A stretch of 64,000 bases of DNA, taken from positions 1-64,000 of the forward strand of contig NZ_AUIC01000007.1 in the NCBI RefSeq assembly GCF_000423505.1, given 5' to 3'. Below are positions 1,062 to 27,676 of this stretch, piece after piece. This DNA is from Pseudoclavibacter soli DSM 23366 (lineage in GTDB: Bacteria; Actinomycetota; Actinomycetes; Actinomycetales; Microbacteriaceae). Numbering within the stretch: the first letter of the stretch is position 1; the number at the start of each line of letters is the position of its first letter. The position numbers and the translations under genes are program-made. The notes beneath the pieces were generated by a model. That model ran no database searches, was not told where the DNA came from, and worked only from the letters and a program-made list of their open reading frames with translations.

Positions 1062-1069
1062 CTATGCGG
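1062..1069 (-). promoter_or_regulatory. CGCATAG box upstream of tnpB
   Basis: CCGCATAG reads toward tnpB, with its end 36 bases before the proposed GTG start. It matches the element-wide box found before many other genes. Whether it belongs to the IS or to the interrupted flank cannot be told. Confidence 0.45.
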
Positions 1070-1092
1070 CGGCCCTCAACGGACGCATTCCT

Positions 1093-1113
1093 CCCCACGG
1101 CTAAAGCCGGGGG
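1093..1113. repeat. IS subterminal hairpin
   Basis: CCCC at 1093-1096 pairs with GGGG at 1110-1113, and CGGCT at 1098-1102 pairs with AGCCG at 1105-1109. One unpaired A (1097) bulges and the loop is two bases. Stem-loops of this shape mark the ends of IS200/IS605-family elements and are recognised as single-stranded DNA by the Y1 transposase. Confidence 0.65.
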
Positions 1114-1121
1114 CACCCTGC

Positions 1122-1292
1122 TCACCCCTCACGGTGGTGCTCGGAGACGATTTCGCCAGCTTGCCAGCAGAAGGTTCGGATGTCTCCGAGGAGCTTGTCT
1201 CTGTCGTTATCGTTCAGCCCAATCTGGATCTCAGCTGGCGAGTGCTCGATCCTACCCCAGCGGCCATTTGCAGCGCGTGGCTGTTCGGTCAA
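1122..1292 (-). CDS. Small protein with the element's N-terminal G-x-[FW] module (56 aa)
   Basis: An open frame with a TTG start at 1292 overlaps the stop of the nucleotidyltransferase gene by four bases (TTGA). AGGA lies about seven bases upstream. The peptide contains NGRWGRIEHSPAEIQIGL, which matches the pattern G-x-[FW]-x(5-8)-E-[VIL]-x-L seen at the N-termini of four other proteins of this element. The last part is rich in Asp, Arg and Trp and shows no known fold. The overlap argues for co-translation with the nucleotidyltransferase. Function unknown. The main doubt is the rare start codon and short length. Confidence 0.5.
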   Translation of the reverse strand: MTEQPRAANGRWGRIEHSPAEIQIGLNDNDRDKLLGDIRTFCWQAGEIVSEHHREG

Positions 1293-1621
1293 AGCTGCAT
1301 CCTGTCAGCCCACGCATGTTCCAAACCAGAGCCAGCTATCTGCTCCGGCGAAACCCAACGAAGATCGAACCGCACTCCATACCGTTCGGAGAGATCGAGC
1401 GCTGCTTCAACGACGGCGAATCCACTGCCGTTGCCGCCCTCGACGAACAGGTCCACGTCTGAACCCGGCCGGTCGAGCCCGGTCAGGCAGGATCCGAAGA
1501 CATGGATGTTGTTGAAACCTCGAGCGTGCAGGAATTCCAAGATCTCATCACGATGGCTTTCGAGTACTTCAGATGGCCGTGCAGCGCTGACAACCGAAGA
1601 TACGTGCGTTCGGTCAGCCAT
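1289..1621 (-). CDS. Minimal nucleotidyltransferase (MNT domain)
   Basis: A 110-residue protein of the DNA polymerase beta superfamily. It holds the signature FGSCLTGLDRPGSDVDLFV, that is GSxxxG followed by SDxD; the two Asp bind Mg-NTP. A third carboxylate is likely in RFDLRWV. Proteins of this size act as antitoxins that AMPylate HEPN toxins, or as accessory enzymes in defence clusters. The ATG at 1621 has GGAGGT seven bases upstream. It follows the 1633-2160 gene by 11 bases and overlaps the 56-residue gene after it, so the three probably form one operon. No HEPN partner with an Rx4-6H motif is visible, which is unusual. Confidence 0.85.
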   Translation of the reverse strand: MADRTHVSSVVSAARPSEVLESHRDEILEFLHARGFNNIHVFGSCLTGLDRPGSDVDLFVEGGNGSGFAVVEAALDLSERYGVRFDLRWVSPEQIAGSGLEHAWADRMQL

Positions 1622-1632
1622 CCCTACCTCCC

Positions 1633-2160
1633 TCATTCCCGTCCCACTGCCTTCGTTCGTGATTCTATACCGCCACACAACCGTGCTGCCAGAGTGCTCG
1701 CGTCGAGCTCGCCTGAGGCGGTTTGACACAGCTTCTTCTCCGCGTCCCAGATGACCAGGCCGCCGGAGGTGTAGAGGCCAGCACTCAGCATCGCAGACAG
1801 GCCCGCATGCAGTCGATCTGCGGCCGCCCCGGAGCTTTCCCACTCGTGTGCGGACACGACGACCAAGAAACCGAGAGGCATTGGTGCGAGGTTCGCGGCA
1901 GAGGCCACCAGCTGCTCCAACCTGTTGCCGACATTCTTACCGAGGCTGCGGTCTATTCGGGTGCACAGAACTCCGAGGCTGTCGGCGGCCACATCTACCC
2001 GGCGGGTATAGAAGCGCCCCTTCAGCGGCACGCCGGTGCGGATGTGCCGGGCTCCGGCGCGTTCGAGTTCGCCCGCCGTCCATGTTCGCACCAGGTCGGC
2101 GTCGTGACCGGTGCGGACGTTTCCGTCTCCGGTCGATAGTGCTCGCGCAAGCTCTTCCAT
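1633..2160 (-). CDS. Uncharacterised protein, first gene of the MNT cluster
   Basis: A 175-residue soluble protein that I do not recognise with confidence. The middle (roughly residues 50-110) has alternating strands and a GKNVGNRLEQLVASAANL stretch. This is loosely like the FGNNxNNRxEEAxGxAxDL helix of XhoI/PaeR7I-type restriction nucleases, but no clear D-ExK active site is visible. The start at 2160 is well supported: a CCGCATAG box ends exactly nine bases before the ATG, as at other genes of this element. It heads an operon with the nucleotidyltransferase. Role in defence or toxin-antitoxin function is inference from that pairing only. Confidence 0.7.
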   Translation of the reverse strand: MEELARALSTGDGNVRTGHDADLVRTWTAGELERAGARHIRTGVPLKGRFYTRRVDVAADSLGVLCTRIDRSLGKNVGNRLEQLVASAANLAPMPLGFLVVVSAHEWESSGAAADRLHAGLSAMLSAGLYTSGGLVIWDAEKKLCQTASGELDASTLAARLCGGIESRTKAVGRE

Positions 2161-2169
2161 ATTCGGGGA

Positions 2170-2188
2170 CTATGCGGTCCGCGCACAC
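2170..2188. promoter_or_regulatory. Divergent promoter boxes: CCGCATAG (-) and GCGCACAC (+)
   Basis: On the minus strand CCGCATAG (2177-2170) is followed by nine bases and the ATG at 2160. On the plus strand GCGCACAC (2181-2188) is followed by eight bases and the ATG at 2197. The same two box classes face apart at 9708-9727. Confidence 0.7.
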
Positions 2189-2196
2189 AGGAGAGT

Positions 2197-2553
2197 ATGA
2201 CTATCATCGAACGTTTCCGAGCCCAACATCCGTCTCGCCGCATAAGTGTCTCTGGAGGGAATATGGACGAGCTCGACTACCTGCATGACGAGAACCGCGA
2301 TTTGCACCGACGGATTCACCTCGCGGCAGAGGCCGTCCGCCACCTGCACCCGGACACGGCAGTCAGCGAGCACGACCGCCAGTGGTGGGATCAGCTGTCG
2401 GCGGCAGTGCTGACCGTCTCCCACCCGCCGCGCTACGGCAACCTGCTCGACGACGGGGGCATCCGCTGGGCCGGCGGTTTCGCCGAGGCCGAGCGTATTC
2501 AGAACGAGCTCGGTCTACCGATGTTTATGGAGCCGTCGGGCGCACGCGCATAG
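2197..2553 (+). CDS. Hypothetical protein (118 aa)
   Basis: No family recognised. The protein is rich in His, Asp and Arg, mostly helical, and ends in a short Gly/Trp-containing segment. Two starts are possible: ATG 2197, eight bases after a GCGCACAC box, and ATG 2263, preceded by GGAGGG. I chose 2197 because the box spacing matches other genes. The stop codon TAG (2551-2553) lies inside the next CGCATAG box. It is divergent from the MNT cluster and upstream of the zinc-ribbon gene. Confidence 0.65.
   Translation: MTIIERFRAQHPSRRISVSGGNMDELDYLHDENRDLHRRIHLAAEAVRHLHPDTAVSEHDRQWWDQLSAAVLTVSHPPRYGNLLDDGGIRWAGGFAEAERIQNELGLPMFMEPSGARA
2547..2553 (+). promoter_or_regulatory. CGCATAG box overlapping a stop codon
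   Basis: The last three bases are the stop codon of the 2197 gene. A start point about ten bases downstream would give a short leader containing GGGAGGT before ATG 2588. Confidence 0.6.
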
Positions 2554-2988: not shown

Positions 2989-2995
2989 CGCATAG
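2989..2995 (+). promoter_or_regulatory. CGCATAG box, nine bases before GTG 3005
   Basis: CGCATAG is followed by nine bases and then GTG, which fixes the start of the subtilisin-like protease and suggests a leaderless transcript. Confidence 0.65.
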
Positions 2996-3902: not shown

Positions 3903-6900
3903 ATGAGTAGGTTCACCCCATACCTCGACGCACTCGAACAGATGAGCACGCCGCATCCTGATGCTCGTATCGTTCGTGGCTGGCGTGGTTGGGGGCCGGT
4001 GGCTCCGCTGATCGACCGGATGCACGACCTTGAAGACACCACCCCGGACGTGGTGCGAATGCGTGAGCTCGGTGCGCTGTTCTCTCCGGAGAACATCGAC
4101 AATTCGTTCTACACGCCCGAAACAGTCATTGACGCCTGCTGGGAGCTGGCGAGCGCTACCGGCATTGACGGTGGCGCAGCGCTGGAGCCCGGGTGCGGGT
4201 CTGGTCTGTTCATTGCCGCCGACCCCGTTGGCTTCCACTGGACCGGCATTGAGTCGGATCCGCTGGCCGCGCGCATGGCTCGACTGCTCAACCCGGCAGC
4301 GGTAATCGCCGAGCGCCCATATGAGTCGCTGGTGCACGCGCCGGGTCGCTACGATCTGGTCATCGGGAATGTGCCGTTCGCAAACACTCGCGTCTGGGAC
4401 GAGCAGACACACCTGCCCAGCGACTCCGTCCACCAATACTTCATCACCCGCGCGCTGACAGAGCTGCGTCGCGACGGGCGCATGGTTGTGGTCGTCTCCC
4501 GTCACATGCTGGACGCATACAAGAACGCCGACGCCCTTGCCCGACACGGGTATCTGGAAACCGCTGTGCGCCTACCCTCCGGCGTCTTCGATGGCACGGA
4601 TGTCGTCGCCGACATTCTGGTGCTGCGCCCGGGCACGGACGACGCCTCCCGCCTGACCGGCTGGTTCGACTCGCATCCGGAGCTGGTCGCCGGCAAAGTC
4701 TCTGGGACCGGCTGGCATAACGGCATTCGTGTTGACGGCGATGCCACCGACATTCACACCGCACTGGGGCACGCACTCCAGATGGTCTCCCGTGCCCCGG
4801 CGCGAACACGTATCAGTGCGGATGTGCCGGATGCGCCCGTCGCGGTCGCTGACGCTGCAGGTCGTCCAATCGGGTCTTTCCAAATCACCGCCGACGGCAT
4901 CGTGGAGATCACCGCCGACGGCGCTGTCGGCGTACGCGAGTCGAAAGAGCTGCGTGCACTGGTGGAGCTGCGTGATCTCGCCATTCGGCTGCTGGACGCA
5001 GAGACGGCAGATACCCCAGACCTAGAGGCCATCCGTACTCAGACACGCGAAGCCTATGAAGCCTATGTCGCGCGCTGGGGTGCACTGGGGCGAGGCAACA
5101 TGTCGGAGGGACGAATCGACCCTGAGACAGGACTGGCACAGCTGAACTGGCGCCGCCCAGCCATGGGCGGGTTCCGCCGTGACCCTGACGCCGCACTGGT
5201 ACTAGCGCTCGAGGTGTTCGATCAGGATACGGGTGAGGCTCGCCCAGCGCCGATTCTCCTGCACCGTGTCAACCACGCGCCTGTCCCCGCAACCCACGCG
5301 GACACGCCAGCTGACGCGCTGGCAATCTCACGGGGTGAGGGCAGGGGAATCGATCTGGATCGCATCGCTGAGCTGCTCGGCACCGATGTGCCGACGGCAC
5401 TGGAGCAGCTGAGTGGACTGGTCTTCCGGGACCCGGTCAACGATGAACTGGTCACCGCAGACGAGTACCTCTCCGGGGACGTCGCCACCAAGCTCGCCGC
5501 AGCGGAAGCTGCTGGAGCCCATGCGAATGTCCTCGCGTTGCGTGAGGTGGTGCCGCCACGCCTGACCGAGCTGGATGTGACCGTGCGTCCGGGCGCCTCA
5601 TGGGTTCCCACCAGCGTCGTCTCAGATTTCACCGCGGAGGTGTTCGGGTCCCGCTCGAACGTCAGCCGGGAGGTGACCACCGGACGTTGGAGTGTTGAGG
5701 GTGGGTGGGCCGCCGGTGACGCTCGCATCCACTTTGGGACCGATGATCGGGATCCGCAGCAGCTGCTTGAGCATCTGCTGAACAACACGTCACCGGTGAT
5801 CGTCCGCGAGGTGCCGAACCCGGAAGACATGTGGGGGCGTCCGCTGAAGGTGCGTGACCAGCGCGCCACTCTGGCCTGCGAGGAGCAGATGGAGGCGATC
5901 TCGGCTCGGTTCACCACGTGGATGTGGGAGGACGGGGACCGGGCTGAGCGTGTCCTGGACATCTACAACGAACGCTTCAACTCATTCGTACCTCGAAGCT
6001 TTGACGGCTCATGGCTGAGCTTCCCCGGAATGTCCGCAGATTTCACCCCGTGGGATCACCAGCGCCGCATGGTCGAACGCGTGATCTCCCAGCCCCGAGT
6101 GCTGTGCGGGCATCCCGTCGGCGCCGGCAAGACCAGCACCTCCATCATGGCGGCGGTCACGCTGCGCCAACTGGGGCTGGCGAGCAAGCCACTGATCGCC
6201 GTACCCAACCACCTGCTGGAGCAGTACGCCCGTGAGGCCCATCAGCTGTATCCGACCGGACGCTTCCTCGTTGCGACCAAAGAGGACCTGAGCGCTGATC
6301 GCCGCAGGCTGTTCGCCGCCCGCTGCGCCACCGGTGACTGGGACGCGGTCATCATGACGCATCAGGCGTTCTCGTCCCTGCCCCTATCTGCCGCAGCAGA
6401 TGAGAGGGTCACTCAGCTGCAGTGCGATCAGGCGATGGATCGCGTCTACGCTGCCGGGCGAGTCAATGTCAAACGTGAGGAGAAGGCGATTCGCCGTTTT
6501 CGCACGAAAGCCCGGAAACTCTCCGACGGTGTCGCCGACGCGCAGCAGGTGATGTTCGACCAGCTCGGCGTCGACCACATCACCATCGACGAGGCGCACA
6601 TGTTCAAACGCCTTGACGTCGATGCCGGCCGGGATCAGGGGTTCGCCTCCGGATCGTCCAAGCGCGCTTGGGATCTGCAGCGCAAGATCGAGTGGCTGGC
6701 CAGCCGTCGCGGCGACCGCCCGGTGGTGGCTCTGATGACTGGCACGCCGTGGTCGAATTCGATCGTGGAGACGTTCGTCTGGCAACGCCTGCTCCAGCCA
6801 GATCGTCTGGTTCGTGCCGAGGTTGCCAACTTCCCGGCGTGGGCGGCGACGTTCGTGCGCTTCGAATCGCAGGTCGAGGTCTCACCGGACGGTTCGAGCT

Positions 6901-8483
6901 TCCGGCTGCAGCGACGCCCCGCAGTCATTCAGAACCTGCCCGAGCTGATGGGCATGTTCGCCGACGTCGCCGATGTGCTCACCCCGGAGCAGATCGGTCT
7001 CGCTCGTCCGGATCATACCGAGACCACTGTGGAGGTCGACCCCACCGACGAGCAGGATACGTTCGTGCGAGAACTGGCCGAGCGTTCGGAGAAGATCCAC
7101 AGCGGGTCGGTCGATCCTGCCGACGACAACATGCTGTTGGTGTGCAATGACGGTCGCAAGGTTGCACTGGATCCTCAGCTAGTCGGTCTGGCCGATGTGA
7201 GCCCGAAAGTCGATGCAGCGGTCGAGCGCATCGCCCGCATCTGGTCGGACACTCGCGAGCGCGTCTACGGCAGTAGAGTCAAGCCCGGTGCACTGCAGGT
7301 GGTCTTCTGCGATCTCGGCACTCCCGGTGACCGCGGCGACCAGACGTACGGGCGTCTGCGATCAGGACTGGTTGCCGCCGGTGTGCCGGCCGAGCAGATC
7401 AGGTTCATTCACGATGCGCGCACTGGGCGTCAGCGGGATGCCCTGTTCCAGCAGTGTCGGGACGGCGATGTTGCTGTGTTGATCGGCTCCACAGAGAAGA
7501 TGGGGACGGGGACAAACATCCAGGATCGCTTGGTGGCTGTGCATCATATGGACCCGCCGTGGCGCCCGTCTGACATCACCCAGAGGGAGGGGCGTGCACT
7601 GCGCCCGGGCAACCTCAACGACCATGTTGAGATCTATCGGTATGTCGCCCGTGGCACTTTTGACTCGTACAGCTTCCAGACGCTGGAACGGAAAGCCCGG
7701 TTCATCGCCCAGCTGATGAGTGCCTCATCCGGCCAGCGTGAGGTCGAGGACATTGCCGAGGCGGTGCTCACATTCTCTCAGGTCAAGGCGATCGCCACCG
7801 GCAATCCGATGCTGCTGGAGCATGCCCGGCTCCGCTCTGAGGTTCGTCGACTTCAGGTGCTGCGCGCGGTGCAGTCTCAAGGTGCAGCGAGGGCTCGCAA
7901 GGAGTCGGGTGCACTTGCGTCCGAAGCGAAACGACTCGGCACTGAAGCTCGCGCATATGAGACGCTTCTGCGGCGCATCCAGCCGGCGCCCGAGGATCCC
8001 CGCGCCGAGCGTGAGCGCTTCGTATGGGCGCTGCGGAGGATGTTCGAATATAACGCCGGGTACGCGAGTGCGACCGTTCGCGGCATCAGCGTCGACCTCT
8101 CCCGCCCCGTCCCGGGCGCACCCGTAACGATGAGGACGCGCATCGGGTCGATCACACTGGAGATCGGCACATTCACCTCTCGCGGATCGGATGCCGAACG
8201 TGCGGCCACCTCCGCACGACGGATCTTCGACGCATGGGTGACGCGGTCGGTCGATGCCGAGGCAATCGAGACCCTGCATGCACGTTCAGCTGGTGCCCTC
8301 GCACAGTCTGATGAGCGGGCACGTGCGGCTGAGAACTTCGTGTTCGCCCAGCAGGTTCAGCTTGACCAGTGTGTTCGTGATCTCGCAGCGGTGGAACGCG
8401 CGCTGGAAGCGGCTGCCGCACCTGCCGAGATTCCGAACGAACCGGCGGTGGGCGCCCCGGAGAAAATAAAGGTGGCAGCATGA
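3903..8483 (+). CDS. N6-adenine DNA methyltransferase / SNF2-type helicase fusion (DarB-like)
   Basis: A 1526-residue protein. The N-terminus is a class I methyltransferase: motif I EPGCGSGLF (95-103) binds S-adenosylmethionine, and motif IV is NVPF (156-159) in place of the common NPPY/F. The C-terminal half is a superfamily 2 helicase: Walker A GHPVGAGKTS (about 737-746), DEAH (896-899), MTGTPWSN (motif III), and QREGRALRPGN (from 1227, motif VI). A helical tail of about 250 residues follows. Such fusions occur in phage P1 DarB and on many conjugative elements, where they are linked to antirestriction or DNA modification during transfer. RBS AAGGAG precedes ATG 3903. The last gene bases overlap the next start (8480) by four. 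Confidence 0.88.
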   Translation: MSRFTPYLDALEQMSTPHPDARIVRGWRGWGPVAPLIDRMHDLEDTTPDVVRMRELGALFSPENIDNSFYTPETVIDACWELASATGIDGGAALEPGCGSGLFIAADPVGFHWTGIESDPLAARMARLLNPAAVIAERPYESLVHAPGRYDLVIGNVPFANTRVWDEQTHLPSDSVHQYFITRALTELRRDGRMVVVVSRHMLDAYKNADALARHGYLETAVRLPSGVFDGTDVVADILVLRPGTDDASRLTGWFDSHPELVAGKVSGTGWHNGIRVDGDATDIHTALGHALQMVSRAPARTRISADVPDAPVAVADAAGRPIGSFQITADGIVEITADGAVGVRESKELRALVELRDLAIRLLDAETADTPDLEAIRTQTREAYEAYVARWGALGRGNMSEGRIDPETGLAQLNWRRPAMGGFRRDPDAALVLALEVFDQDTGEARPAPILLHRVNHAPVPATHADTPADALAISRGEGRGIDLDRIAELLGTDVPTALEQLSGLVFRDPVNDELVTADEYLSGDVATKLAAAEAAGAHANVLALREVVPPRLTELDVTVRPGASWVPTSVVSDFTAEVFGSRSNVSREVTTGRWSVEGGWAAGDARIHFGTDDRDPQQLLEHLLNNTSPVIVREVPNPEDMWGRPLKVRDQRATLACEEQMEAISARFTTWMWEDGDRAERVLDIYNERFNSFVPRSFDGSWLSFPGMSADFTPWDHQRRMVERVISQPRVLCGHPVGAGKTSTSIMAAVTLRQLGLASKPLIAVPNHLLEQYAREAHQLYPTGRFLVATKEDLSADRRRLFAARCATGDWDAVIMTHQAFSSLPLSAAADERVTQLQCDQAMDRVYAAGRVNVKREEKAIRRFRTKARKLSDGVADAQQVMFDQLGVDHITIDEAHMFKRLDVDAGRDQGFASGSSKRAWDLQRKIEWLASRRGDRPVVALMTGTPWSNSIVETFVWQRLLQPDRLVRAEVANFPAWAATFVRFESQVEVSPDGSSFRLQRRPAVIQNLPELMGMFADVADVLTPEQIGLARPDHTETTVEVDPTDEQDTFVRELAERSEKIHSGSVDPADDNMLLVCNDGRKVALDPQLVGLADVSPKVDAAVERIARIWSDTRERVYGSRVKPGALQVVFCDLGTPGDRGDQTYGRLRSGLVAAGVPAEQIRFIHDARTGRQRDALFQQCRDGDVAVLIGSTEKMGTGTNIQDRLVAVHHMDPPWRPSDITQREGRALRPGNLNDHVEIYRYVARGTFDSYSFQTLERKARFIAQLMSASSGQREVEDIAEAVLTFSQVKAIATGNPMLLEHARLRSEVRRLQVLRAVQSQGAARARKESGALASEAKRLGTEARAYETLLRRIQPAPEDPRAERERFVWALRRMFEYNAGYASATVRGISVDLSRPVPGAPVTMRTRIGSITLEIGTFTSRGSDAERAATSARRIFDAWVTRSVDAEAIETLHARSAGALAQSDERARAAENFVFAQQVQLDQCVRDLAAVERALEAAAAPAEIPNEPAVGAPEKIKVAA

Positions 8484-9055
8484 GCGAGATTCGATCGAGC
8501 GCTGATAACCGGCTGGTCTACCGGCTGGTCAATGTGGGTGTGGTTCTGACCGCGCTGGCCGCCACTCTGGTCAGTTGGAATGGGTTGACGTTCGTGGGTG
8601 TGTGGGCCGAGCTTCCCGGCGGGATGCTGTGGCTGATGCCTCTGATGATCGATCTGCCCATTGTGGTGTTCACCATGGGTGGGCTCGCCAGACGTTCACG
8701 GGCGGAGAGCTACTGGCTGTTCAGTCTCGCCGGGTATGCCCTCACTGTCGTCTCGGCCGCCGCGAACTTCCTGCACGTGGTCTCCATTCGGGGGCTGGAC
8801 ACGCTCGAGGGTGTGGTCGGCTCGTGCCTGTCTGCCATGGCGCCGGTGCTGGTGCTGCTGACCACTGAGGCGCTGGGCGCACTGCTGGCGAAACCACAGC
8901 GCGCACCGGATGCCGAACAGGTTGCCGGCAGTGTCGACGAGCTGACTCGGGCGCTGGCCGCGGCACACGCCGAGGTGGTCAACAGCCAGTCCGCGCAGGC
9001 AGAGTCAGAGCGGTATCGAGAGCACGCGGCTCGAGCCGAACAATCCCTCGCATAG
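8480..9055 (+). CDS. DUF2637-like membrane protein with C-terminal coiled coil
   Basis: A 191-residue protein with four predicted membrane helices (about 15-35, 47-66, 77-97, 106-135) and then a charged, Ala/Glu-rich helical tail. WLMPLMIDLPIVVF fits the DUF2637/SpdB2-like family that accompanies FtsK-type transfer proteins on actinobacterial plasmids and may help spread of DNA between cells. ATG 8480 overlaps the end of the methylase-helicase gene (ATGA type), so translation is coupled. The TAG stop is part of a CGCATAG box. Confidence 0.72.
   Translation: MSEIRSSADNRLVYRLVNVGVVLTALAATLVSWNGLTFVGVWAELPGGMLWLMPLMIDLPIVVFTMGGLARRSRAESYWLFSLAGYALTVVSAAANFLHVVSIRGLDTLEGVVGSCLSAMAPVLVLLTTEALGALLAKPQRAPDAEQVAGSVDELTRALAAAHAEVVNSQSAQAESERYREHAARAEQSLA
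9049..9055 (+). promoter_or_regulatory. CGCATAG box overlapping a stop codon
   Basis: Its TAG is the stop of the membrane protein gene. A start point near 9065 would give a leader with GAGGAGG before the redoxin ATG at 9108. Confidence 0.58.
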
Positions 9056-9387: not shown

Positions 9388-9699
9388 TCAATCGCCTTCA
9401 AACGTGCGCCGGGCCGTCTCCAGATCGGGATGGTTCAGGCGCACGTCTGTGTGTGGGGTCACCGTCGATCCGTCCGCCAGTTGGACATCGCCCAGAAACT
9501 CGAAGCTCGCATGTGCTTTCCATCCATCCGGTGCGCTGCTGAGCTCCAAGGTGTCCGCTCCAGCACACACCAGATCGGCGTCGTCTCCACTGAGGTGAGT
9601 CACCGCTGCGTCGAGGCTCACGTCGGCCGGCGTCTTGTGCTGCAGGGCGAAACGTCCGCCGCTGCCATGGAGGTTGCCGTGCTGGTCAAAGGTCGTCAT
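9388..9699 (-). CDS. Small protein with the element's N-terminal G-x-F module (103 aa)
   Basis: No family recognised. Residues 3-31 carry the module: FDQHGN, then GGRFALQHKTPADVSLD. The rest is rich in Asp, Leu and Thr and looks like a small beta-rich domain. It starts at 9699, eight bases after a GCGCACAT box, and is divergent from the 9737 gene. It converges on nrdH, with only seven bases between the stops. Function unknown; the shared N-terminus links it to ArdC and two other proteins here. Confidence 0.7.
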   Translation of the reverse strand: MTTFDQHGNLHGSGGRFALQHKTPADVSLDAAVTHLSGDDADLVCAGADTLELSSAPDGWKAHASFEFLGDVQLADGSTVTPHTDVRLNHPDLETARRTFEGD

Positions 9700-9707: not shown

Positions 9708-9727
9708 ATGTGCGCTGCTCCGCATAG
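9708..9727. promoter_or_regulatory. Divergent promoter boxes: GCGCACAT (-) and CGCATAG (+)
   Basis: Minus strand: GCGCACAT (9715-9708), eight bases, ATG 9699. Plus strand: CGCATAG (9721-9727), nine bases, ATG 9737. This repeats the layout at 2170-2188 in mirror image. Confidence 0.7.
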
Positions 9728-12416: not shown

Positions 12417-12423
12417 CGCATAT
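12417..12423 (+). promoter_or_regulatory. CGCATAT box, nine bases before ATG 12433
   Basis: A variant of the element box with T in the last place. Its nine-base spacing selects ATG 12433 over a GTG nine bases earlier. Confidence 0.6.
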
Positions 12424-16727: not shown

Positions 16728-16735
16728 CCGCATAG
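16728..16735 (+). promoter_or_regulatory. CCGCATAG box
   Basis: Located five bases after the stop of the preceding gene. A start point near 16745 gives a 19-base leader with GAGGAGG before ATG 16764. Confidence 0.6.
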
Positions 16736-17649: not shown

Positions 17650-17746
17650 AGGGCCACGCCAGCTCGAACTCATGGGTCTGAACAAGAAGCGGACGAGGCC
17701 CTCCAACGTATACCTATGCGGAACAGGTGCGCTTGTTCGTCCATGA

Positions 17747-17754
17747 CCGCATAC
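17747..17754 (+). promoter_or_regulatory. CCGCATAC box, nine bases before a short upstream ORF
   Basis: Variant of the element box with C in the last place. Nine bases later is the ATG (17764) of a ten-codon frame that overlaps the next gene. Confidence 0.55.
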
Positions 17755-17763: not shown

Positions 17764-17796
17764 ATGACCGTCGTATTCGGGAGAGACCATGGATGA
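17764..17796 (+). CDS. Ten-codon leader ORF
   Basis: ATG 17764 opens a frame encoding MTVVFGRDHG whose TGA (17794-17796) overlaps the first codons of the 17789 gene. The box spacing predicts that this ATG is the 5' end of the mRNA. It may couple translation of the next gene to initiation on a leaderless message. Evidence is positional only. Confidence 0.35.
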   Translation: MTVVFGRDHG

Positions 17797-18875: not shown

Positions 18876-19922
18876 ATGACAACAACACGAGTGCGAGGAC
18901 GTGACCGGGGGAGAGCACCAGGCCGTGGCACCCCCGGCAGCTTCGACATCAAGCATCAGAGCAGCGCCGAGGTAAGTCTCGATGCCGAGGCAGGCAGCGC
19001 CTTGCCCGAGAAGAAGCTGACGAAGGCGGACGAGCATAAGGCCCTGGTCGCACGCGAGCTCCTATCGGCCATGCGCGAGGGTACCGCACCATGGCAGCGC
19101 CCGTGGGCGCCGGGGGAGCTGTCGGCCTATCGCCCGTCGAATGCTGCGACGGGGCGCCCATACAGCGGACAGAACACGCTGTGGCTGATGATCTCGGCGA
19201 CGCGAGCAGGCTACCCATCGAACCAGTGGATGACCTTCAACCAGGCGAAGAAACTCGGCGGACAAGTACGCAAAGGCGAGCACGGCACTCGCATCCTGAT
19301 CTACAAGACCTTTGAGCGCCGCGACAAAGACGGTTCTCCAATGCTGGACGACCACGGAAAACCGATGACAGGTGTATTCGCGTCCACGGCCACTGTGTTC
19401 AACATCGCCCAAGTTGACGGCCTCCCAGAGAAGGCAACCCCCGCTGACGCCGCACCTACAGAGCGCGCATGGGAGGACGACCGTGTTGGCCAGTCGGTCA
19501 TCGACTCATCTGGTGCGGTTATTCACCACGTCAGCCAAGACAGGGCCTTCTACCGGCCTTCCACCGACGAGATCACGCTTCCGACGCGCGAGCAGTTCCC
19601 CGACGCCAGCTCGTATTACTCGACCGCCTTTCATGAACTCTCGCACTGGACCGGGCATCCGTCTCGGCTCAATCGTGTGCACGGCAAGAGCTTCGGCGAC
19701 CACGACTACGCTGGCGAAGAGCTTGTCGCAGAGCTGTCCTCGTTCCTGATCTCATCGGAGACACAGGTCGGTTATGAGCCGGCTCAGACCGCCGCTTACC
19801 TGAAAAGCTGGTCAGATGCGCGCGGGAGCAAAGATGCCGAGGCCGAAGTCCAGCAGGCGCTTCACGATGCTGGCCGCGCCGCGAAATACCTGCTGGACAA
19901 GATCCCGGGGCGCAGCGCATAG
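18876..19922 (+). CDS. ardC: ArdC-like antirestriction protein with metallopeptidase domain
   Basis: A 348-residue protein. Residues 1-36 carry the shared N-terminal module (GSFDIKHQSSAEVSLD). An ArdC N-terminal single-stranded DNA-binding domain follows (APWQRPW near 71; NAATGRPYSGQN at 89-100; GGQVRKGEHGT). The C-terminal part is a zinc metallopeptidase with HELSH (253-257) and a distal Glu region. ArdC-type proteins protect incoming plasmid DNA from restriction. The start is chosen from the GCGCACAT box eight bases upstream. The stop TAG forms part of the CGCATAG box that drives the replication gene. Confidence 0.88.
   Translation: MTTTRVRGRDRGRAPGRGTPGSFDIKHQSSAEVSLDAEAGSALPEKKLTKADEHKALVARELLSAMREGTAPWQRPWAPGELSAYRPSNAATGRPYSGQNTLWLMISATRAGYPSNQWMTFNQAKKLGGQVRKGEHGTRILIYKTFERRDKDGSPMLDDHGKPMTGVFASTATVFNIAQVDGLPEKATPADAAPTERAWEDDRVGQSVIDSSGAVIHHVSQDRAFYRPSTDEITLPTREQFPDASSYYSTAFHELSHWTGHPSRLNRVHGKSFGDHDYAGEELVAELSSFLISSETQVGYEPAQTAAYLKSWSDARGSKDAEAEVQQALHDAGRAAKYLLDKIPGRSA
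19916..19922 (+). promoter_or_regulatory. CGCATAG box overlapping the ardC stop
   Basis: Stop codon and box share TAG; nine bases follow, then ATG 19932. One of the cleanest examples of stop, promoter and start packed together. Confidence 0.65.
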
Positions 19923-19931: not shown

Positions 19932-22900
19932 ATGAGCAACCCGTCATACGCCCCGGAACAGTACGCCCCGAATGTCACAGACTCCGGCGCCCTGAAACTG
20001 GCAGACTCAGCAGTGGCACCGCTGGTCGCCGCCGCACGCGGCTACAGCTGGCTTCAGGAGCCTGCAGTCAAAGGCTTCGCCAAGGACCACCACATGGGAG
20101 CGGGCAATACGAAAGTCGTTCGTCAGCTGGCACAGGTCGTCAACGACACGGGGGCGATGGTGATGCCGTGGTTCCGTGTGGACCGGGTGCTCGAGGCACA
20201 GTCTCACGGTATCGAGGCCAGCTTCGATGCTCTGCAGTATCGACCGACGCGTCCGCGTGCGTTCGGTGACGGGCACATCGCCAAGTATGAGATGCGGTTG
20301 GGAGACCCCTCCATTATTGATGTTCACCCCGCCACGCCGAAGTCGTGGTTCGAGCCCGGTGGTGTGGCGAACATCCTGATCACCGAGGGACTGTTGAAAG
20401 CTGATGCAGCGGTGACTGGCATGCTCGCAGCGGCTGGCGTCGATAAAGCCGCGCTGGCCGAATCAGATCAGCCGAGTGTAGCCCGTTCGAAACTGACGGA
20501 GGTGATGGACGCGATCCCCGTTCAAGATCGCACGCTCATTCTCGCTCTTGTCGGCGTCGGCAACTGGCATCGCAACGCGTTGGAGTTCAGCGCCATCCCC
20601 ACGAAGGATGCCAACGTCATCTTGGGTTTCGACGCGGACGCAGCGACGAACATCAACGTCTGGACGCAACTGGACCGGCTGACCACCTTCCTCACCGACC
20701 GCGGCGCACGGGTGCAGTATCTGAGTCTCGAGGAGGCCAACCTCGCTGATGTCGCCGCCGGCGGCAAAGGCAAGCTCGGCATCGACGACGCCCTTGCCCG
20801 CTACACGGACTGGTCGGCGTTGATCGCCTACCAGAATCTCGACAGTATCCTCCCGGAGCGCCCGAAGGACTCCGTCGTCGCACGTGAGGGCGCATGGCGG
20901 ATCGCCGGTGCCACCGACGAACATCCTGCCGGCACCTCCACGCAGGTCTGCCACGAAGTGCGCAACGAATTCGGCTCCGGTTCCGGTGACCTGCGTTGGG
21001 AGACCAAATTCCCATTCGGCGGTCGACTGGCGCAAGTCGTCTCCACGCGCAGCCCCACCCAGACAGAGATCGAATCCGGCGTCTACGAGAAGGGCTGGAC
21101 GCCCAAGGACAGCCCGGAGCTGAAGATGACTGCGGTCGTCGAGATCGGCTGGGTCGACCAGTTCACTGGGGAGCCCAGAAGCACCCGGATCGAAGGTCCG
21201 GCATCCGTCGTCGCGTACCAAGAGCCCAAGGACTGGGGGAGGGCTTCTGCGAACGTGGATCTTCCCGTCGATGTCTTCGACATCCCCCAATTTCCACCCG
21301 GCAAAGATGGTCGTGATTGGTTGAACGCGGTGAAGTCACACCGAGCCGACGAGCGACAGACGCTGACTGCGTGGGACACGCTCGGATGGGTGCCGGTTCC
21401 GGACAGTGACACCTGCGCATTCATTGCGGGATCTGGACAAGTCATCGCGCCCGACCGGCAGACGCGAGAGGCAGTCGTGTCCGCCGTCACCGAGACCGAT
21501 CTACCCGCAGCGAGCCGCTTCGGTGTCCGACTGCCTGCCGGGGAGCCACTCACCGAGGACTGGAAATCCGAAGTTCGGGACGCGATCAGGCGCATGTTCG
21601 ACTCTTATGTCTTCAGCGGCGTCTGGGCAGACCCCGGCACAGCGGCCGTCGTGCTGGCAGCCGGTCTGCGCCCCTATCTGCCGTTGCGCACACATTCGGT
21701 CGTCTACCTTCAAGGCCCTCCCGGGAAAGGGAAGTCGTGGACGGCTGCGGCGATCGCCAGCTTCCACCAGTCCTCTCCCGGGCTGTTCGACAACAACAGC
21801 CTTCCGGCGGGTGCGAACGCGACAGCCTACGCGACAGAGATCGCAGTATCCAAAGCCAACCTCTGGATCGTCGACGACATCGCACCCACACTCGACCGGC
21901 GCAAAGCCGAAGAGCAGGCGTCAAAGATCGCCGACATGATCCGCGCCATCCACAACGCCGCGTCACGTCAGCGTGGAAACGGCAGCGGAGGACTGGCTAA
22001 GACTCGCACCCCGCGAGCGCTTCTGGTGCTCACCGCTGAGAATAATGCCCAGCTGCGCAGTGTCCGCGACCGCACGTTGGAAGTGACCTTTGGAGAGGGG
22101 TCGCTGTCCAACGGATCTGACGGCAATCTGGTGGAGCGGGTCTCCACATTCCGTGACGAGGATGATGCACCCGCGCTGATCGCCGGTGCTCTGGTGCAAT
22201 TCATCCAAGCGATCACAGCCGGTCCCGGGGAGTGGGCCAAGATGGTGCGTGACGAGCGTGAGCTGCGTACCGACTTAGAGTCCGACTACCGTGTGCTGAT
22301 GCAGGAGCGCGGGGTGAACAATTCCAACGTCGCTCGTAAGGCGAAGATCGGCGCCGACCTTGCGCTCGGCCTGCAGGCGATGCTCTCGCTGTGTGACGCC
22401 GTCGGCGGATTGGAACGTGAGTACGAGGCGGTCTCCGCCTATACCAAGGGGGGCTTGTTCGAGCAGCTGGGCAATCTGGTGGCTGATAACGCACTCGGAC
22501 AGCAGCGTCGTTCGCCCGGTCAGACGCTCGTGGAGGCGATCCGTGGCATGCTCATCTCCGGCGACGCCTATCTGGACTCCGCGGCCGGTGACGGCACTCC
22601 ACCGCTTGGTGGCGCAGCGGACGCCGGCAATGCCCAGCTGGGGTGGCAGAAGACACCGGAGGGGGAGTGGCGGCCACGTGGCCGATACATGATCGGTGTG
22701 GTGACGGAAGCCCCGGACGGGGAAGGGGAGCGGCTTGCCGTGATCATGCAGAAACCGACCTCGGGGCTGGCTCTGAAGTTTGACCCGACAATCGGTCATG
22801 GCAGCGACGGCTCCACGATGTTCCGGACATTGTATGCCGAGCACCTCGTGCACCCTCACTACCAGTCGACGCTGGAACGTACCGGACGCGTGTCCGTGCA

Positions 22901-22979
22901 GATTCGACGGACTCCCAACGTGCGGATCTGGGGCGTGCCGCTGTCGCTGGACGAAATTCTCGAGGGGGATCAGGCGTGA
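19932..22979 (+). CDS. Replication protein: TOPRIM-like (DUF3854-type) and P-loop ATPase
   Basis: A 1015-residue protein. The N-terminal third has a TOPRIM-like core: Glu152 in ILITEGLLKAD and Asp234/Asp236 in GFDADAA, as in plasmid primases. The C-terminal half has Walker A GPPGKGKS (595-602) and WIVDDIAPT as a likely Walker B, resembling DUF927-type helicases. The combination suggests a primase-helicase for autonomous replication of the excised element. ATG 19932 lies nine bases after a CGCATAG box. The end overlaps the RuvC-like gene by four bases (GTGA). Exact family assignment is from motifs only. Confidence 0.8.
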   Translation: MSNPSYAPEQYAPNVTDSGALKLADSAVAPLVAAARGYSWLQEPAVKGFAKDHHMGAGNTKVVRQLAQVVNDTGAMVMPWFRVDRVLEAQSHGIEASFDALQYRPTRPRAFGDGHIAKYEMRLGDPSIIDVHPATPKSWFEPGGVANILITEGLLKADAAVTGMLAAAGVDKAALAESDQPSVARSKLTEVMDAIPVQDRTLILALVGVGNWHRNALEFSAIPTKDANVILGFDADAATNINVWTQLDRLTTFLTDRGARVQYLSLEEANLADVAAGGKGKLGIDDALARYTDWSALIAYQNLDSILPERPKDSVVAREGAWRIAGATDEHPAGTSTQVCHEVRNEFGSGSGDLRWETKFPFGGRLAQVVSTRSPTQTEIESGVYEKGWTPKDSPELKMTAVVEIGWVDQFTGEPRSTRIEGPASVVAYQEPKDWGRASANVDLPVDVFDIPQFPPGKDGRDWLNAVKSHRADERQTLTAWDTLGWVPVPDSDTCAFIAGSGQVIAPDRQTREAVVSAVTETDLPAASRFGVRLPAGEPLTEDWKSEVRDAIRRMFDSYVFSGVWADPGTAAVVLAAGLRPYLPLRTHSVVYLQGPPGKGKSWTAAAIASFHQSSPGLFDNNSLPAGANATAYATEIAVSKANLWIVDDIAPTLDRRKAEEQASKIADMIRAIHNAASRQRGNGSGGLAKTRTPRALLVLTAENNAQLRSVRDRTLEVTFGEGSLSNGSDGNLVERVSTFRDEDDAPALIAGALVQFIQAITAGPGEWAKMVRDERELRTDLESDYRVLMQERGVNNSNVARKAKIGADLALGLQAMLSLCDAVGGLEREYEAVSAYTKGGLFEQLGNLVADNALGQQRRSPGQTLVEAIRGMLISGDAYLDSAAGDGTPPLGGAADAGNAQLGWQKTPEGEWRPRGRYMIGVVTEAPDGEGERLAVIMQKPTSGLALKFDPTIGHGSDGSTMFRTLYAEHLVHPHYQSTLERTGRVSVQIRRTPNVRIWGVPLSLDEILEGDQA

Positions 22980-23541: not shown

Positions 23542-23549
23542 CCGCATAA
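23542..23549 (+). promoter_or_regulatory. CCGCATAA box before the prepilin genes
   Basis: A variant with A in the last place, eight bases after the RuvC-like stop. A start point near 23559 would give a leader of about 38 bases to ATG 23597. Confidence 0.5.
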
Positions 23550-25037: not shown

Positions 25038-25376
25038 TCAGATGCGCGGCGGCATCGGTGCGCGACCAATACGCGGAGGGGCGGTCTTCCGGTCAAGCCG
25101 CGGGGGAAGCCCGAAGAGAGGCATGCGCTCGATGACGGCGTTGTCCGCTGAGCGTGGCTCACCTTTTCGGTAGACCATGGCTTCGATGTCGTCAGCGTCG
25201 CTGCCCGGCGCGAACCGGGGAGCGGACGGCACAGGCGGTACAGGCGGCATGGCCGGGATGCCTGGAACGTCGGGGAGAGTGATCTCCGCACCGCTCTGAT
25301 GCTTGGCTGCGAACTGTCCGGCATGGCCGGTGCGTGCGTTGCCGCGGGGATGCTGTGTCGGGTCGAATGCGCTCAT
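25038..25376 (-). CDS. Small Pro-rich protein with the N-terminal G-x-F module (112 aa)
   Basis: The first 36 residues hold FDPTQHPRGN and GHAGQFAAKHQSGAEITLP, nearly identical in part to the 26219 protein. The rest is Pro, Arg and Met-rich and ends in PPRI; it looks disordered. It starts eight bases after a CACAT-type box and converges on the prepilin operon. Function unknown. Confidence 0.68.
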   Translation of the reverse strand: MSAFDPTQHPRGNARTGHAGQFAAKHQSGAEITLPDVPGIPAMPPVPPVPSAPRFAPGSDADDIEAMVYRKGEPRSADNAVIERMPLFGLPPRLDRKTAPPRIGRAPMPPRI

Positions 25377-25552: not shown

Positions 25553-25560
25553 CTATGCGG
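25553..25560 (-). promoter_or_regulatory. CCGCATAG box before ATG 25544
   Basis: Perfect eight-base match on the minus strand, eight bases before the start codon. Confidence 0.6.
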
Positions 25561-25563: not shown

Positions 25564-25791
25564 CTATCCCTGATACAGGTTCGGATCGATCCCGAACTGT
25601 GTGAACCAGCCGTGGAAGTAGCCGAACACGAGTACGGCGAGGATGAGAACGAAGGCGGCGATCTTCGCCAGCTTCTTCGCCCACGCAATTCCTGTCGTCG
25701 CCGCGATCATCAGCACTGTGCCAGCGGACAGTCCGGTGATCCCGGACAGCCACGCCACCAGCTCCTGAACACCCGCTGCGAACTGCTCCAT
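25564..25791 (-). CDS. Small membrane protein (75 aa)
   Basis: Starts at ATG 25791, overlapping the stop of the upstream gene by one base, with GGAGG nine bases before it. Two membrane helices are likely (about 22-38 and 45-63), with KKLAK between them. The size and layout resemble holins or small conjugation membrane proteins, but no family can be named. Confidence 0.62.
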   Translation of the reverse strand: MEQFAAGVQELVAWLSGITGLSAGTVLMIAATTGIAWAKKLAKIAAFVLILAVLVFGYFHGWFTQFGIDPNLYQG

Positions 25792-26219
25792 CACGCTGCC
25801 TCCTCGTTCTCGCACGCAAGCCCCTGCCGTAGAAACGTGTCGAGACCGGCGGTGCCGTCGCCGAAGCCGACCTGCCCGGAGACGGTCTCGCCGTCAACGC
25901 GCTCGTAGGAGTAGCCCACCCACCCGGTCGCGTCGGACTCGTCGCTGAGACGGTTGTCTTGGATCACCACGGAACGTCGCCCGTCTGCGCTGTCAATCGT
26001 ATGTGCGGCGCCGAGACCGTTGACTACGTCTGGTTCCGATGTGGTCATGCTCAGCCCGTTGGCCTGCGCCCAGTTCGTCACCTGCTCAGCGAGTTCATCA
26101 GGCGTCACCGCCGTATCCAATCCGAGTTCAGGGGTGAAATGCTGTTTCGCTGCAAACTGACCGGCATGGCCGGTGACGGTGTTGCCGCGCGGATGCTGTG
26201 TGGGGTCGAAGTTGCTCAT
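25791..26219 (-). CDS. Protein with the N-terminal G-x-F module (142 aa)
   Basis: Residues 1-37 carry FDPTQHPRGN and GHAGQFAAKQHFTPELGLD. The next part (about 40-142) is an acidic alpha/beta domain of unknown family with DSADGRRSVVIQDN. The start is seven bases after a GCGCACAT box. It is coupled to the 75-residue membrane protein by a one-base overlap. Its first 75-80 bases are close in DNA sequence to those of the 25376 gene. Confidence 0.7.
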   Translation of the reverse strand: MSNFDPTQHPRGNTVTGHAGQFAAKQHFTPELGLDTAVTPDELAEQVTNWAQANGLSMTTSEPDVVNGLGAAHTIDSADGRRSVVIQDNRLSDESDATGWVGYSYERVDGETVSGQVGFGDGTAGLDTFLRQGLACENEEAA

Positions 26220-26226
26220 ACCACTC

Positions 26227-26234
26227 ATGTGCGC
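26227..26234 (-). promoter_or_regulatory. GCGCACAT box before ATG 26219
   Basis: Seven bases separate the box from the start codon; an ATG in the box itself (26228) is in frame and would add three residues. Confidence 0.55.
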
Positions 26235-26256
26235 GGCGGGGCAAAAATGTGCCTGC

Positions 26257-27444
26257 TCAGTCGCTGTAGCCGAAAGCGCTCTGCAGAAGATCCGCTGTGC
26301 GTTTGTCGACCCACGGCAGTTCCTTGATGTAGAACCGACGAGTCGTTTCACTGGACGCGTGCCCGAGTAACCGTGCAGCGAGCTCCACGTCACCGAGAGA
26401 AGCGATCTCTGTAGCCACCGTTTTACGCATCGTGGAGAAAAGCACGTTCTCGACCGGCGCCTCAAGAGCGTCGAACAGCTGCTGTCCGGTCGCCCAGTTC
26501 CGGAACTTCCGAAATGCTCGATCCAAATTATTCAGCTGGTAGGGGGTTCCCTTACGCGTGCGGAACAGGTAGTCCTCTGCGTCGGAGCAGATCTGCATCT
26601 TCGCCATGATGATGTCGGCAGCAAATCTCGGTAGGCAGATGATTCGCATCTGACGCGCACGTTTCGGCGTGGGTTTGCGCTCACCGTTGGGCTGCATCGT
26701 CCCATTCACAGACACAAACACCTGGTCGTCGACAACCAACACATCTCGTTTGCGCAGGGCCAGCACCTCACCGGGTCGCATGCTCGTTCCCAGGACAATG
26801 TCAAGGATTCGGCGGATATCGAGGTTCGGACCCACTCCGCGGCGCTTCGTCGACTCCCACTGGATGAGCACCTGACGTACCACGTCAACGTCGTGGGCGC
26901 TTAGCGCCTCCCGTTCAGTCTTCGCCGGCCGGACTGGAGTCGTTGCAGCGGCGAAGTCGCGCTCGATATGCCCCATTCGGACAAGGTGCTGACACACCAT
27001 ACTCAGTACGATACGAGCCATTTTGGCGTTCCACGCGCCCCTCTCGTCGGAGATGCTTGTGACCACGCCCTCGAGCAGCGGTACATTGAGGTCGCTGATG
27101 CGTATCTGTGCCAAGCGGCTCTGCAGAGTCCGATTCAGGCATCGCCGATACTGGGCTAACGTCCCAGCCGCCGCGTTCGGGTGAGCGCGCTTATACGCCT
27201 CAAGCCACTGACGTCCGGCCTCTTCGAGCGTTGACCCTGAGTCAAGCGCTTGCGTGGCGCCGAGAATCTGTGCCAAAGCCTTGTGGATCGATTCCAGCGC
27301 GGCGTTCTCGTCTGCTCCTTTTCGTTCGACCTGACGTGCAGTTCCGTCCATCAGATACACGCGACACCGAGCAATCCATCCTCTGCCCGATCGACTCGCC
27401 CTGATCGGCGAATGAGTTCCCGGCGCTTTCGGTGGCCTGCTCAT
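26257..27444 (-). CDS. int: Tyrosine recombinase (integrase)
   Basis: A 395-residue integrase with an N-terminal SAM-like DNA-binding region (about 70-165) and a C-terminal catalytic domain. Catalytic residues: Arg223 (SMRPGE), Arg340 (STMRKT), His362 (LLGHASS) and Tyr372 (RRFYIKE). Ser337 stands where most relatives have the His of HxxR. The ATG at 27444 is four bases after the excisionase stop. It is expected to recombine the tRNA 3' end with the element att site. Confidence 0.93.
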   Translation of the reverse strand: MSRPPKAPGTHSPIRASRSGRGWIARCRVYLMDGTARQVERKGADENAALESIHKALAQILGATQALDSGSTLEEAGRQWLEAYKRAHPNAAAGTLAQYRRCLNRTLQSRLAQIRISDLNVPLLEGVVTSISDERGAWNAKMARIVLSMVCQHLVRMGHIERDFAAATTPVRPAKTEREALSAHDVDVVRQVLIQWESTKRRGVGPNLDIRRILDIVLGTSMRPGEVLALRKRDVLVVDDQVFVSVNGTMQPNGERKPTPKRARQMRIICLPRFAADIIMAKMQICSDAEDYLFRTRKGTPYQLNNLDRAFRKFRNWATGQQLFDALEAPVENVLFSTMRKTVATEIASLGDVELAARLLGHASSETTRRFYIKELPWVDKRTADLLQSAFGYSD

Positions 27445-27448
27445 CTGT

Positions 27449-27661
27449 TCAGGCCACTTCCTGCAAGTCCGCAGCCTCCATGTCCTCGAGGTATCGGTCG
27501 ACCGTCTCGCGCCGCCAGCGAACGGAGCCACCAATCTTCACCGCGCGTGGACCCTGGCCCTTTGCGCGCAGGTTGCGAATCGTCTTCTCGGAAACGTTCA
27601 AGAGGGAGGCAAGGTCCTTGATGGTCAGCAGTGGAAGCTCCGCCGTGGTGTTCTGTGTCAT
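27449..27661 (-). CDS. xis: Excisionase / MerR-like helix-turn-helix protein
   Basis: A 70-residue protein with an HTH_17-type domain: LTIKDLASLLNVSEKTIRNL then GSVRWRRETVDRYL, as in AlpA/Xis proteins that guide excision and can regulate int. ATG 27661 is eight bases after a CGCATAG box; a longer start at 27688 is less likely. It forms an operon with int. Confidence 0.87.
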   Translation of the reverse strand: MTQNTTAELPLLTIKDLASLLNVSEKTIRNLRAKGQGPRAVKIGGSVRWRRETVDRYLEDMEAADLQEVA

Positions 27662-27669
27662 GTGACTGT

Positions 27670-27676
27670 CTATGCG
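27670..27676 (-). promoter_or_regulatory. CGCATAG box driving xis-int
   Basis: Eight bases before the excisionase ATG, extended to CGCGCATAG. Confidence 0.62.

Follow-up and report, generated by a model that had tools for sequence, protein, structure and literature searches.

Sigma factors that are encoded by a mobile element and read promoters dedicated to it are a known kind of regulator in phages. The late promoters of T4, which are served by the phage sigma factor gp55 and consist of a -10 block only, are an example. Here we describe a short box, CGCATAG, that recurs throughout an element in the genome of Pseudoclavibacter soli DSM 23366 and lies, in one orientation, at fixed distances upstream of start codons. 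The stretch of DNA analyzed (the window) comprises 64,000 nucleotides, positions 1 to 64,000 of contig C6 (NZ_AUIC01000007.1) of a 2.22-Mb genome in nine contigs; the element fills its first 27.8 kb and appears to continue on contigs C5 and C7, for a size of ~170 kb. An earlier note on this DNA had proposed that the box represents either a private promoter class or an operator. Our analysis points to the former, and the box is very probably the -10-like core of an element-private promoter.

Two types of described promoters come close to this arrangement. In the portions available of two reports (PMC3160421, PMC3890552), the leaderless SigA promoters of actinobacteria have TANNNT some 12 bases upstream of the start codon. 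The box is like them in forming a -10 block at a fixed distance from the start, in lacking a leader, and in having a weak or absent -35 block. However, it keeps an upstream CGCA and no T at -7, as the earlier note had seen, its sister form CGCACA lacks the T of the TA, and box plus start is not in excess on the sampled host chromosome; TANNNT at positions -12 to -7, expected of a leaderless promoter of the host SigA, was not seen in the box alignments. FliA/WhiG-type promoters, so far as the available part of PMC8325347 describes them, combine a -35 block TAAA with a -10 block GCCGATAA. These resemble the box in the CG-rich upstream half of the -10 block (CCGATA, compared with CCGCATA), but the box has one more base between CG and ATA, and the aligned boxes show CGCATAG and no TAAA. 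In addition, two plasmids considered below, pACHL01 and pYJN5-1, have no FliA-like gene among the matches listed.

With T4 gp55, the present system would share an element-encoded sigma-like factor, a promoter made of a -10 block only, and element-wide use. It differs in sequence and host, in that the candidate factor (SigX) matches sigma regions 2 to 4 by profile, and in that its carriers are plasmids and integrated elements. In the open-licence literature searched, we found no plasmid family that carries 73-121 copies of a single private leaderless promoter; nor was anything on point found there for sigma factors with such promoters encoded by plasmids or integrative and conjugative elements, which, for open-licence literature only, is weak evidence of absence.

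Results

The box is enriched and keeps fixed distances from start codons

CGCATAG occurs 12 times in positions 1-27800 of the window, where 2.27 copies are expected, and none of 200 rounds of first-order shuffling reached 12; the earlier estimate of about three chance copies in 27 kb fits this expectation. The remainder of the window (28001-64000), which is alike in G+C content, holds one copy (3.46 expected). When the start codon is made part of the pattern (CGCATAG-N8-9-[AG]TG), six places are found in 1-27800 (0.15 expected) and none in 28001-64000 (0.21 expected). Every box listed in the earlier note is present in the sequence, including an orphan copy at 17714(-), and the coordinates were right except for three shifted by one base, which should read 16729, 17748 and 23543. 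Eleven of these sites and the orphan (17714-17720(-)) are exact copies of CGCATAG, the variants being CGCATAT at 12417, CGCATAC at 17748 and CGCATAA at 23543. The core CGCATA is found 18 times in positions 1-27676; three places, 2239, 4514 and 7952, had not been listed, and the latter two lie within a long open reading frame (ORF) at 3903-8483. The gap between box and start codon is nine bases at 2160, 3005 (GTG), 9737, 12433, 17764 and 19932 and eight bases at 25544 and 27661, exactly as had been claimed. With the nine-base gap the TA falls at -12/-11, and with the eight-base gap it falls one base nearer to the start.

Across the ~170-kb element, 22 of the 46 copies of CGCATAG are of the leaderless type, with an ATG (19 copies) or GTG (three copies) that begins 15 or 16 bases after the first C of the box; 15 are followed by a predicted start at a distance of 29-76 bases, and nine have neither. 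Counted from the first C of CGCATAG, ATG is most frequent at offsets 15 (n=10) and 16 (n=9), with three or fewer at any other offset, and the complementary word, used as a control, gave no ATG offset above two. The base at -1 is a pyrimidine in all 22 leaderless-type copies (C in 12, T in 10). Bacterial RNA polymerase usually prefers start sites with a pyrimidine at -1 and a purine at +1.

Gene starts on C5, C6 and C7 were assigned with our own codon-usage caller, which grants a bonus for ribosome sites and none for the box. A Shine-Dalgarno (SD) match of at least 4 accompanies 14 of the 15 farther copies, compared with 5 of the 22 leaderless-type copies (Fisher p 2.9e-5). Because the caller itself rewarded such matches, the test was redone with an SD-blind caller, and gave 5/22 versus 10/13 (p 0.004); the remaining 11 copies fell in neither group. 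The leaderless-type start was the caller's own choice in 17 of 22 cases, also when SD-blind. The simplest account of these observations would be that the box sets the start of the RNA 15-16 bases downstream, the transcript being leaderless if a gene begins there and otherwise having a leader with a ribosome site.

The host chromosome and related genomes

Comparison with the chromosome, which the earlier note had called for, gave chance-level counts. CGCATAG was found 30 times in a rule-based sample of 360 kb (33.6 expected), once in an earlier sample of 160 kb (13.3 expected), and three times in C6:28001-84000 (4.0 expected). In these 576 kb taken together, CGCATAG-N8-9-[AG]TG occurs once (3.6 expected), compared with 22 times in the element; an initial chromosome sample, chosen around pattern matches, was left out of all counts. 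A depletion of CGCATAG on the chromosome, suggested by the 160-kb sample (1 versus 13-16 expected), was withdrawn after the count in the 360-kb sample. Since the argument rests on box plus start, its odds are unaffected by this withdrawal. That the two samples differ so much in CGCATAG is odd.

In the whole genome, CGCATAG-N8-9-[AGT]TG marks 37 places, compared with 15 for a reversed-pattern control, and 22 of the 37 fall within C5, C7 and the first 27.7 kb of C6. Among 199 genomes of the same family, this one has the most CGCATAG-N8-9-ATGA, 17 copies (control 0), followed by genomes G133 and G085 with seven each. G133, which belongs to the same genus, has seven CGCATAG-N8-9-ATG in the 100 kb examined, at C1:126-155 kb. 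The element of G133 encodes an integrase 77% identical to that of the window and has a tRNA-Met nearby.

A family of giant plasmids carries the box or a sister form

The primase-like core gene of the element (DUF3854; 19932-22979(+)), a marker of the plasmid family, matches eight of 72,556 plasmid records at 29-34% identity. All eight are circular, 375-608 kb in size, and come from Curtobacterium, Pseudarthrobacter, Arthrobacter and Paenarthrobacter. GCATAG-N7-9-ATG is found 104 times on pS16, 121 times on pCPAA3 and 73 times on D40, with 2, 2 and 0 places for the reversed control, respectively. The counts on the others are 9 for pACHL01 (control 0), 9 for pYJN5-1 (4), 8 for pPA-B-2242 (0), 8 for the A. 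caoxuetaonis plasmid (3) and 7 for zg-Y1110 (1). A sister form, ACACAT-N7-ATG, occurs 85 times on pACHL01, 79 on pYJN5-1, 81 on pPA-B-2242, 58 on the A. caoxuetaonis plasmid and 69 on zg-Y1110, with controls of 0 throughout, and 17 (0), 14 (0) and 13 (1) times on pS16, pCPAA3 and D40, respectively. When the sites of pACHL01 are aligned on the ATG, the resulting CCGCACACAT places CGCACA at -16 to -11, where CGCATA stands in the window element with the nine-base spacing; the two forms therefore share a core, CGCAYA.

GCATAG also precedes the ATG of the primase gene itself, by nine bases in the window element, seven in pS16, eight in pPA-B-2242 and nine in pACHL01, the base before it being C only in the window element and pACHL01. 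Judged from these alignments, it is a footprint, kept despite the low identity of the proteins. Core genes common to the element and the plasmids, not all of them on each, are those for the primase, DnaE, a ParA-like protein, SigX, SigY, helicases and the pilus. Primase, SigX and SigY occur together on all eight plasmids and in the window genome (primase on C6, SigX and SigY on C7); five of the eight were compared by these three proteins and box counts only. The other three, pACHL01, pPA-B-2242 and pS16, share core genes and box with the window element but are circular records of 418-546 kb, whereas the element is ~170 kb long and has an integrase beside a tRNA-Met. In another family, an element of ~260 kb in genome G466 (G466:C7:1.004-1.284 Mb) combines core genes with 58 places of CGCACAT-N9-ATG. 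No related loci were obtained by a genome-contig search with two SigX members or a viral-contig search with SigY and primase.

The -35-like block varies

CCGT starts 16 bases before CGCATAG in 21 of 33 copies on pPA-B-2242 (z 25.9; shuffled maximum 5.9) and in 18 of 34 copies on pACHL01 (z 21.4; shuffled maximum 5.4), a -35-like block at a fixed place that makes the promoter a two-block one on both. On the same two plasmids the ACACAT form has a separate -35 block, CGGKGAG. The strongest upstream feature of pS16 is TCCG abutting the box (73/173 copies), and farther upstream CACA is found at -21 in 18/173 copies (z 15.6). In G466, no upstream block of more than about half a bit was found in the 58 CGCACAT-N9-ATG places beyond the box-adjacent bases. 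A conserved -10 with a drifting -35 is the behavior to be expected of sigma promoters. A further sequence, GACACCCG, is seen just upstream of boxes, often as CTGACACCCG or GTGACACCCG (pPA-B-2242 positions 7227, 7331 and 37419; pACHL01 positions 331731, 335574 and 367708), and is perhaps a second operator or an iteron.

SigX and other sigma-like proteins

SigX is a protein of 262 amino acids (aa) encoded at C7:2673-3461, outside the window, beside a ParA-like gene. The gene order on pACHL01, a plasmid of the soil strain Pseudarthrobacter chlorophenolicus A6, and on pPA-B-2242 is ParA-like gene, two more genes, SigX, primase; SigX of pACHL01 is encoded at 330755-331642. Comparison by hhalign of a five-member SigX alignment with four true sigma-70s gave a probability of 94.4% (E 8.9e-8) over 214 columns spanning regions 2 to 4, and a six-member alignment gave 94.6%; ten single proteins from the element or G133 did not exceed 0.6% against either alignment, a loose control in that these are single sequences. 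By profile, SigX can be regarded as a divergent relative of sigma-70. No Pfam sigma-70 domain was detected in SigX above the curated cut-off, and sub-threshold matches to Sigma70_r3 (E 1e-4 to 6e-3) were obtained in all four members scanned, or four of five with the G466 member.

SigX queries match the same eight plasmids as the primase and no other of the 72,556 records, one query matching three to four places on each Curtobacterium plasmid. Among 396 genomes of the order, 13 match a SigX model at E 1e-4, six of them at more than 100 bits. SigX, SigY, a FliA-like sigma and DnaE of G466 all lie in the 280-kb stretch that holds the 58 CGCACAT-N9-ATG, and five CGCATAG-N7-9-ATG are found in the 60 kb around SigX in G463. 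A SigX remnant with an internal stop is present at G078:C12:309787-310047, in a region with a primase relative, where the box is weak.

By eye, SigY had looked like a second sigma, an impression to which the profile comparison lends no support (probability 0.9%); of two members scanned for Sigma70_r2, that of pACHL01 has a weak match (E 0.0042) and that of the element none. A sigma-like ORF noticed by eye in the G133 element (C1:142277-143458) was supported by neither profile nor Pfam tests. An element-encoded RNA polymerase was suspected while no sigma domain had been found in the element, and dropped once SigX was recognized. A complete sigma-70 fused to a superfamily-2-type helicase is encoded on the chromosome (C3:211961-214531). 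It is 43% identical over 785 residues to a helicase-sigma of pACHL01 (377249-380221), which has a C-terminal part like the helicase-associated (HA) repeats, and pYJN5-1 has a 74% identical protein.

Individual boxes and gene content of the element

Boxes of the leaderless type in the window precede a variety of genes. CGCATAG at 2170-2176(-) stands before ATG 2160 of a 175-aa ORF (1633-2160), and CGCATAG at 2989-2995(+) before GTG 3005 of a subtilase-like ORF (below the Pfam cut-off), for which the gene caller chose ATG 3137 over GTG 3005. The copy at 9721-9727(+) serves ATG 9737 of a 303-aa protein with counterparts on pS16, pPA-B-2242 and pACHL01. CGCATAT at 12417-12423(+) precedes ATG 12433 of a cutinase-like gene, and CGCATAG at 19916-19922(+) precedes ATG 19932 of the primase gene. 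Two copies on the minus strand complete this group: that at 25553-25559 precedes ATG 25544 of a short frame passed over by the gene caller, and that at 27670-27676 precedes ATG 27661 of a 70-aa helix-turn-helix protein, excisionase-like by eye, whose gene is followed by that of the tyrosine integrase. CGCATAC at 17748-17754(+) combines both arrangements, with ATG 17764 nine bases downstream and, at 17789, a start that has a ribosome site.

The other boxes are followed by starts with a ribosome site. CGCATAG at 1062-1068(-) lies 43 bases from start 1025 of a TnpB-like (OrfB_IS605) ORF, CGCATAA at 2239-2245(+), not given in the earlier note, 24 bases from start 2263, and CGCATAG at 2547-2553(+) 41 bases from start 2588. 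CGCATAG at 9049-9055(+) precedes start 9108 of a glutaredoxin-like gene, at 13992-13998(+) start 14039 of an Ig-like repeat protein, and at 16729-16735(+) start 16764; CGCATAA at 23543-23549(+) precedes start 23597 of a pilin-like gene. The orphan at 17714-17720(-) is without a start at a fitting distance.

The left edge of the window is a contig end inside the element, as the window begins where C6 begins. The frame running off this end matches OrfB_IS605, and a frame at the end of C7 matches the TNB domain, the part that completes such a TnpB protein in a further copy at C5:80270; ParA-like frames at the end of C5 and the start of C7 contain, by eye, a common repeated stretch. Since these ParA-like and TnpB frame parts match across contig ends, the ~170-kb element probably runs C5, C7, C6:1-27.8k, with joins that are inferred rather than assembled. 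Its end on C6 is formed by a tyrosine integrase gene (26257-27534(-)) and, on the boundary side, a tRNA-Met (27829-27903(-)). Its genes include those for DnaE, LigA, a single-stranded DNA-binding protein (SSB), the DUF3854 primase, a ParA-like protein, helicases, type IV pilus/transfer proteins, ArdC and glutaredoxin, several of these names having been assigned by eye or via plasmid annotation. The first 40 kb of C5 hold few boxes and may be of different origin.

Several further features were seen. The TnpB-like gene (OrfB_IS605) is present in two copies, at window positions 1-1068 and at C5:80194-81700; their common upstream flank, including the box at 1062, is duplicated at C5:80194, and, from the sequence, the TnpB insertion element seems to use the plasmid's promoter. 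At C7:10480-15541, a helicase gene accompanies genes for tandem HA-repeat proteins, two of which were scanned and have six and seven matched stretches; a box starts three of these four genes. An N-terminal stretch like FDPTxHPRGN..GQFA is common to otherwise different proteins of the window (25038-25376, 25791-26219 and 9388-9699), of C5:646-22723, of C7:22563 (SigY) and of G133 (C1:153005-153301). SigY also matches 14 ORFs in C5:646-22723, presumably through this stretch, which could be a sorting or transfer tag.

Discussion

The account that we favor, and hold to be probable though by no means assured, is that the box belongs to a private promoter class of a family of giant actinobacterial plasmids and related integrated elements, with SigX as the most likely factor. 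RNA polymerase with an element-encoded specificity factor would recognize CGCAYA[GT] with a C-rich flank, and RNA would start about 15-16 bases after the first C of the box. Where the start base is the A of an ATG, the mRNA would be leaderless; where the gene starts farther on, it would have a short leader containing a ribosome site. The specificity factor would be SigX, encoded beside partition genes and, on the plasmids, also beside the primase gene. The basis in the sequence consists of the enrichment, the rule of strand and spacing, the ribosome-site split, the pyrimidine at -1, the conservation on plasmids and the profile membership of SigX; we infer that RNA begins at the predicted base and that it is SigX that reads the box. 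The reading as a promoter class, one of the two offered in the earlier note, draws its support from strand, fixed distances, ribosome-site split and the density on element and plasmids. Weighing against the favored account, nine of the 46 copies lack a start at a fitting distance, five of the 22 'leaderless' starts carry a 4-5 base ribosome-site match, and five of the 22 were passed over by the gene caller.

SigX is the leading candidate for reading the box, a tentative assignment because no SigX was detected in G133, other sigmas are present on the plasmids and the host has the helicase-sigma fusion. We are somewhat more hesitant about a wider picture, in which a strongly divergent sigma-70 clade (SigX), borne by giant plasmids and integrated elements of actinobacteria, runs a programme of its own, with up to ~120 promoters per plasmid, a single CGCAYA[GT] block that sets the RNA start at the start codon, and a -35 block that is lineage-specific (CCGTC, CACAG) or absent.

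Alternatively, a different sigma may read the box: the host SigA or the chromosomal helicase-sigma, alone or with SigY or an HA-repeat protein as helper, and on the plasmids an RpoD- or FliA-like sigma. We consider this rather doubtful, although a fair number of observations pull in its direction and against SigX. G133 has the box, yet no SigX was found at E 0.1 across its whole genome, and it has a sigma in an 853-aa open frame resembling the host fusion; the chromosomal helicase-sigma could serve both the window genome and G133, and the similarity of the host fusion to the helicase-sigma of pACHL01 points the same way. SigY is present on the same eight plasmids as SigX. RpoD-like sigmas were found on at least five of the eight plasmids (among the matches listed, 40 of 557) and FliA-like sigmas on at least six (among the matches listed, 20 of 47), and these could read one or both forms of the box. 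The five plasmids dominated by ACACAT are the five with an RpoD-like sigma among the matches listed; this suggests that the ACACAT form, with its own -35 block GGKGAG in pACHL01 and pPA-B-2242, may be read by the RpoD-like sigma and not by SigX. The GCATAG form itself is barely over control on pYJN5-1 and the A. caoxuetaonis plasmid. The FliA/WhiG -10 block GCCGATAA, as far as the available part of PMC8325347 gives it, is not unlike CCGCATAG. As for SigX itself, box-ATG places are few at some of its loci (two in 40 kb in G499, two in 70 kb in G222, none on the 5-kb contig of G400), Pfam gives no match at E 0.1 for its G466 member, and generic helix-turn-helix families outscore the sigma family in two members.

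On the other side, box plus start does not exceed chance on the sampled chromosome, so that a host sigma reading the box would lack a visible regulon of this kind in the host. The element contigs gave no match to Sigma70_r2. In scans of entire plasmids for Sigma70_r2, which covered pS16, pPA-B-2242 and pACHL01 only, pS16 with its 104 box-ATG places had a FliA-like gene as its sole match, whereas pACHL01, where the CGCATAG form is present, had no FliA-like gene among its matches.

That the box is an operator, or a site for a nucleoid- or partition-type protein that lies near starts by happenstance, we think very unlikely. It is true that the box of the window element is a single compact block, no -35 block having emerged above shuffles among k-mers at fixed offsets there (n=46) or in G133 (n=11), and that the element encodes HA-repeat and other helix-turn-helix proteins; that no -35 block stands out in these two also counts against the promoter reading. 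However, the fixed orientation, the two exact start distances, the ribosome-site split and the pyrimidine at -1 in 22/22 copies tie the box to the transcript start rather than to binding alone, and by eye the box is not a palindrome. The operator proposal of the earlier note is thus not upheld.

A translation signal read in the mRNA would account for boxes eight to nine bases before many start codons. It is a highly improbable reading nonetheless, as 15 copies lie 29-76 bases from starts, mostly with a ribosome site of their own, and the second conserved upstream block on pACHL01 and pPA-B-2242 is promoter-like. Chance or base composition, to which the nine of 46 copies without a start at a fitting distance and the chance-level chromosome might appeal, can be set aside almost entirely, since none of the 200 shuffles reached the count in 1-27800 and the plasmid counts are 73-121 against controls of 0-2 (three plasmids) and, for the sister form, 58-85 against 0 (five plasmids).

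Plasmids are usually thought to borrow the promoters of their host. One plasmid family appears instead to carry dozens to more than 100 copies of a promoter type whose use is not apparent on the host chromosome, and this type is kept across bacterial families together with a candidate sigma factor. Such a family may offer a system for studying how a mobile element separates its own expression from that of its host, and how recognition of the -10 and -35 blocks diverges, the -10 being kept while the -35 varies by lineage. Gene annotation is affected as well, since many genes on these plasmids seem to start without a ribosome site.

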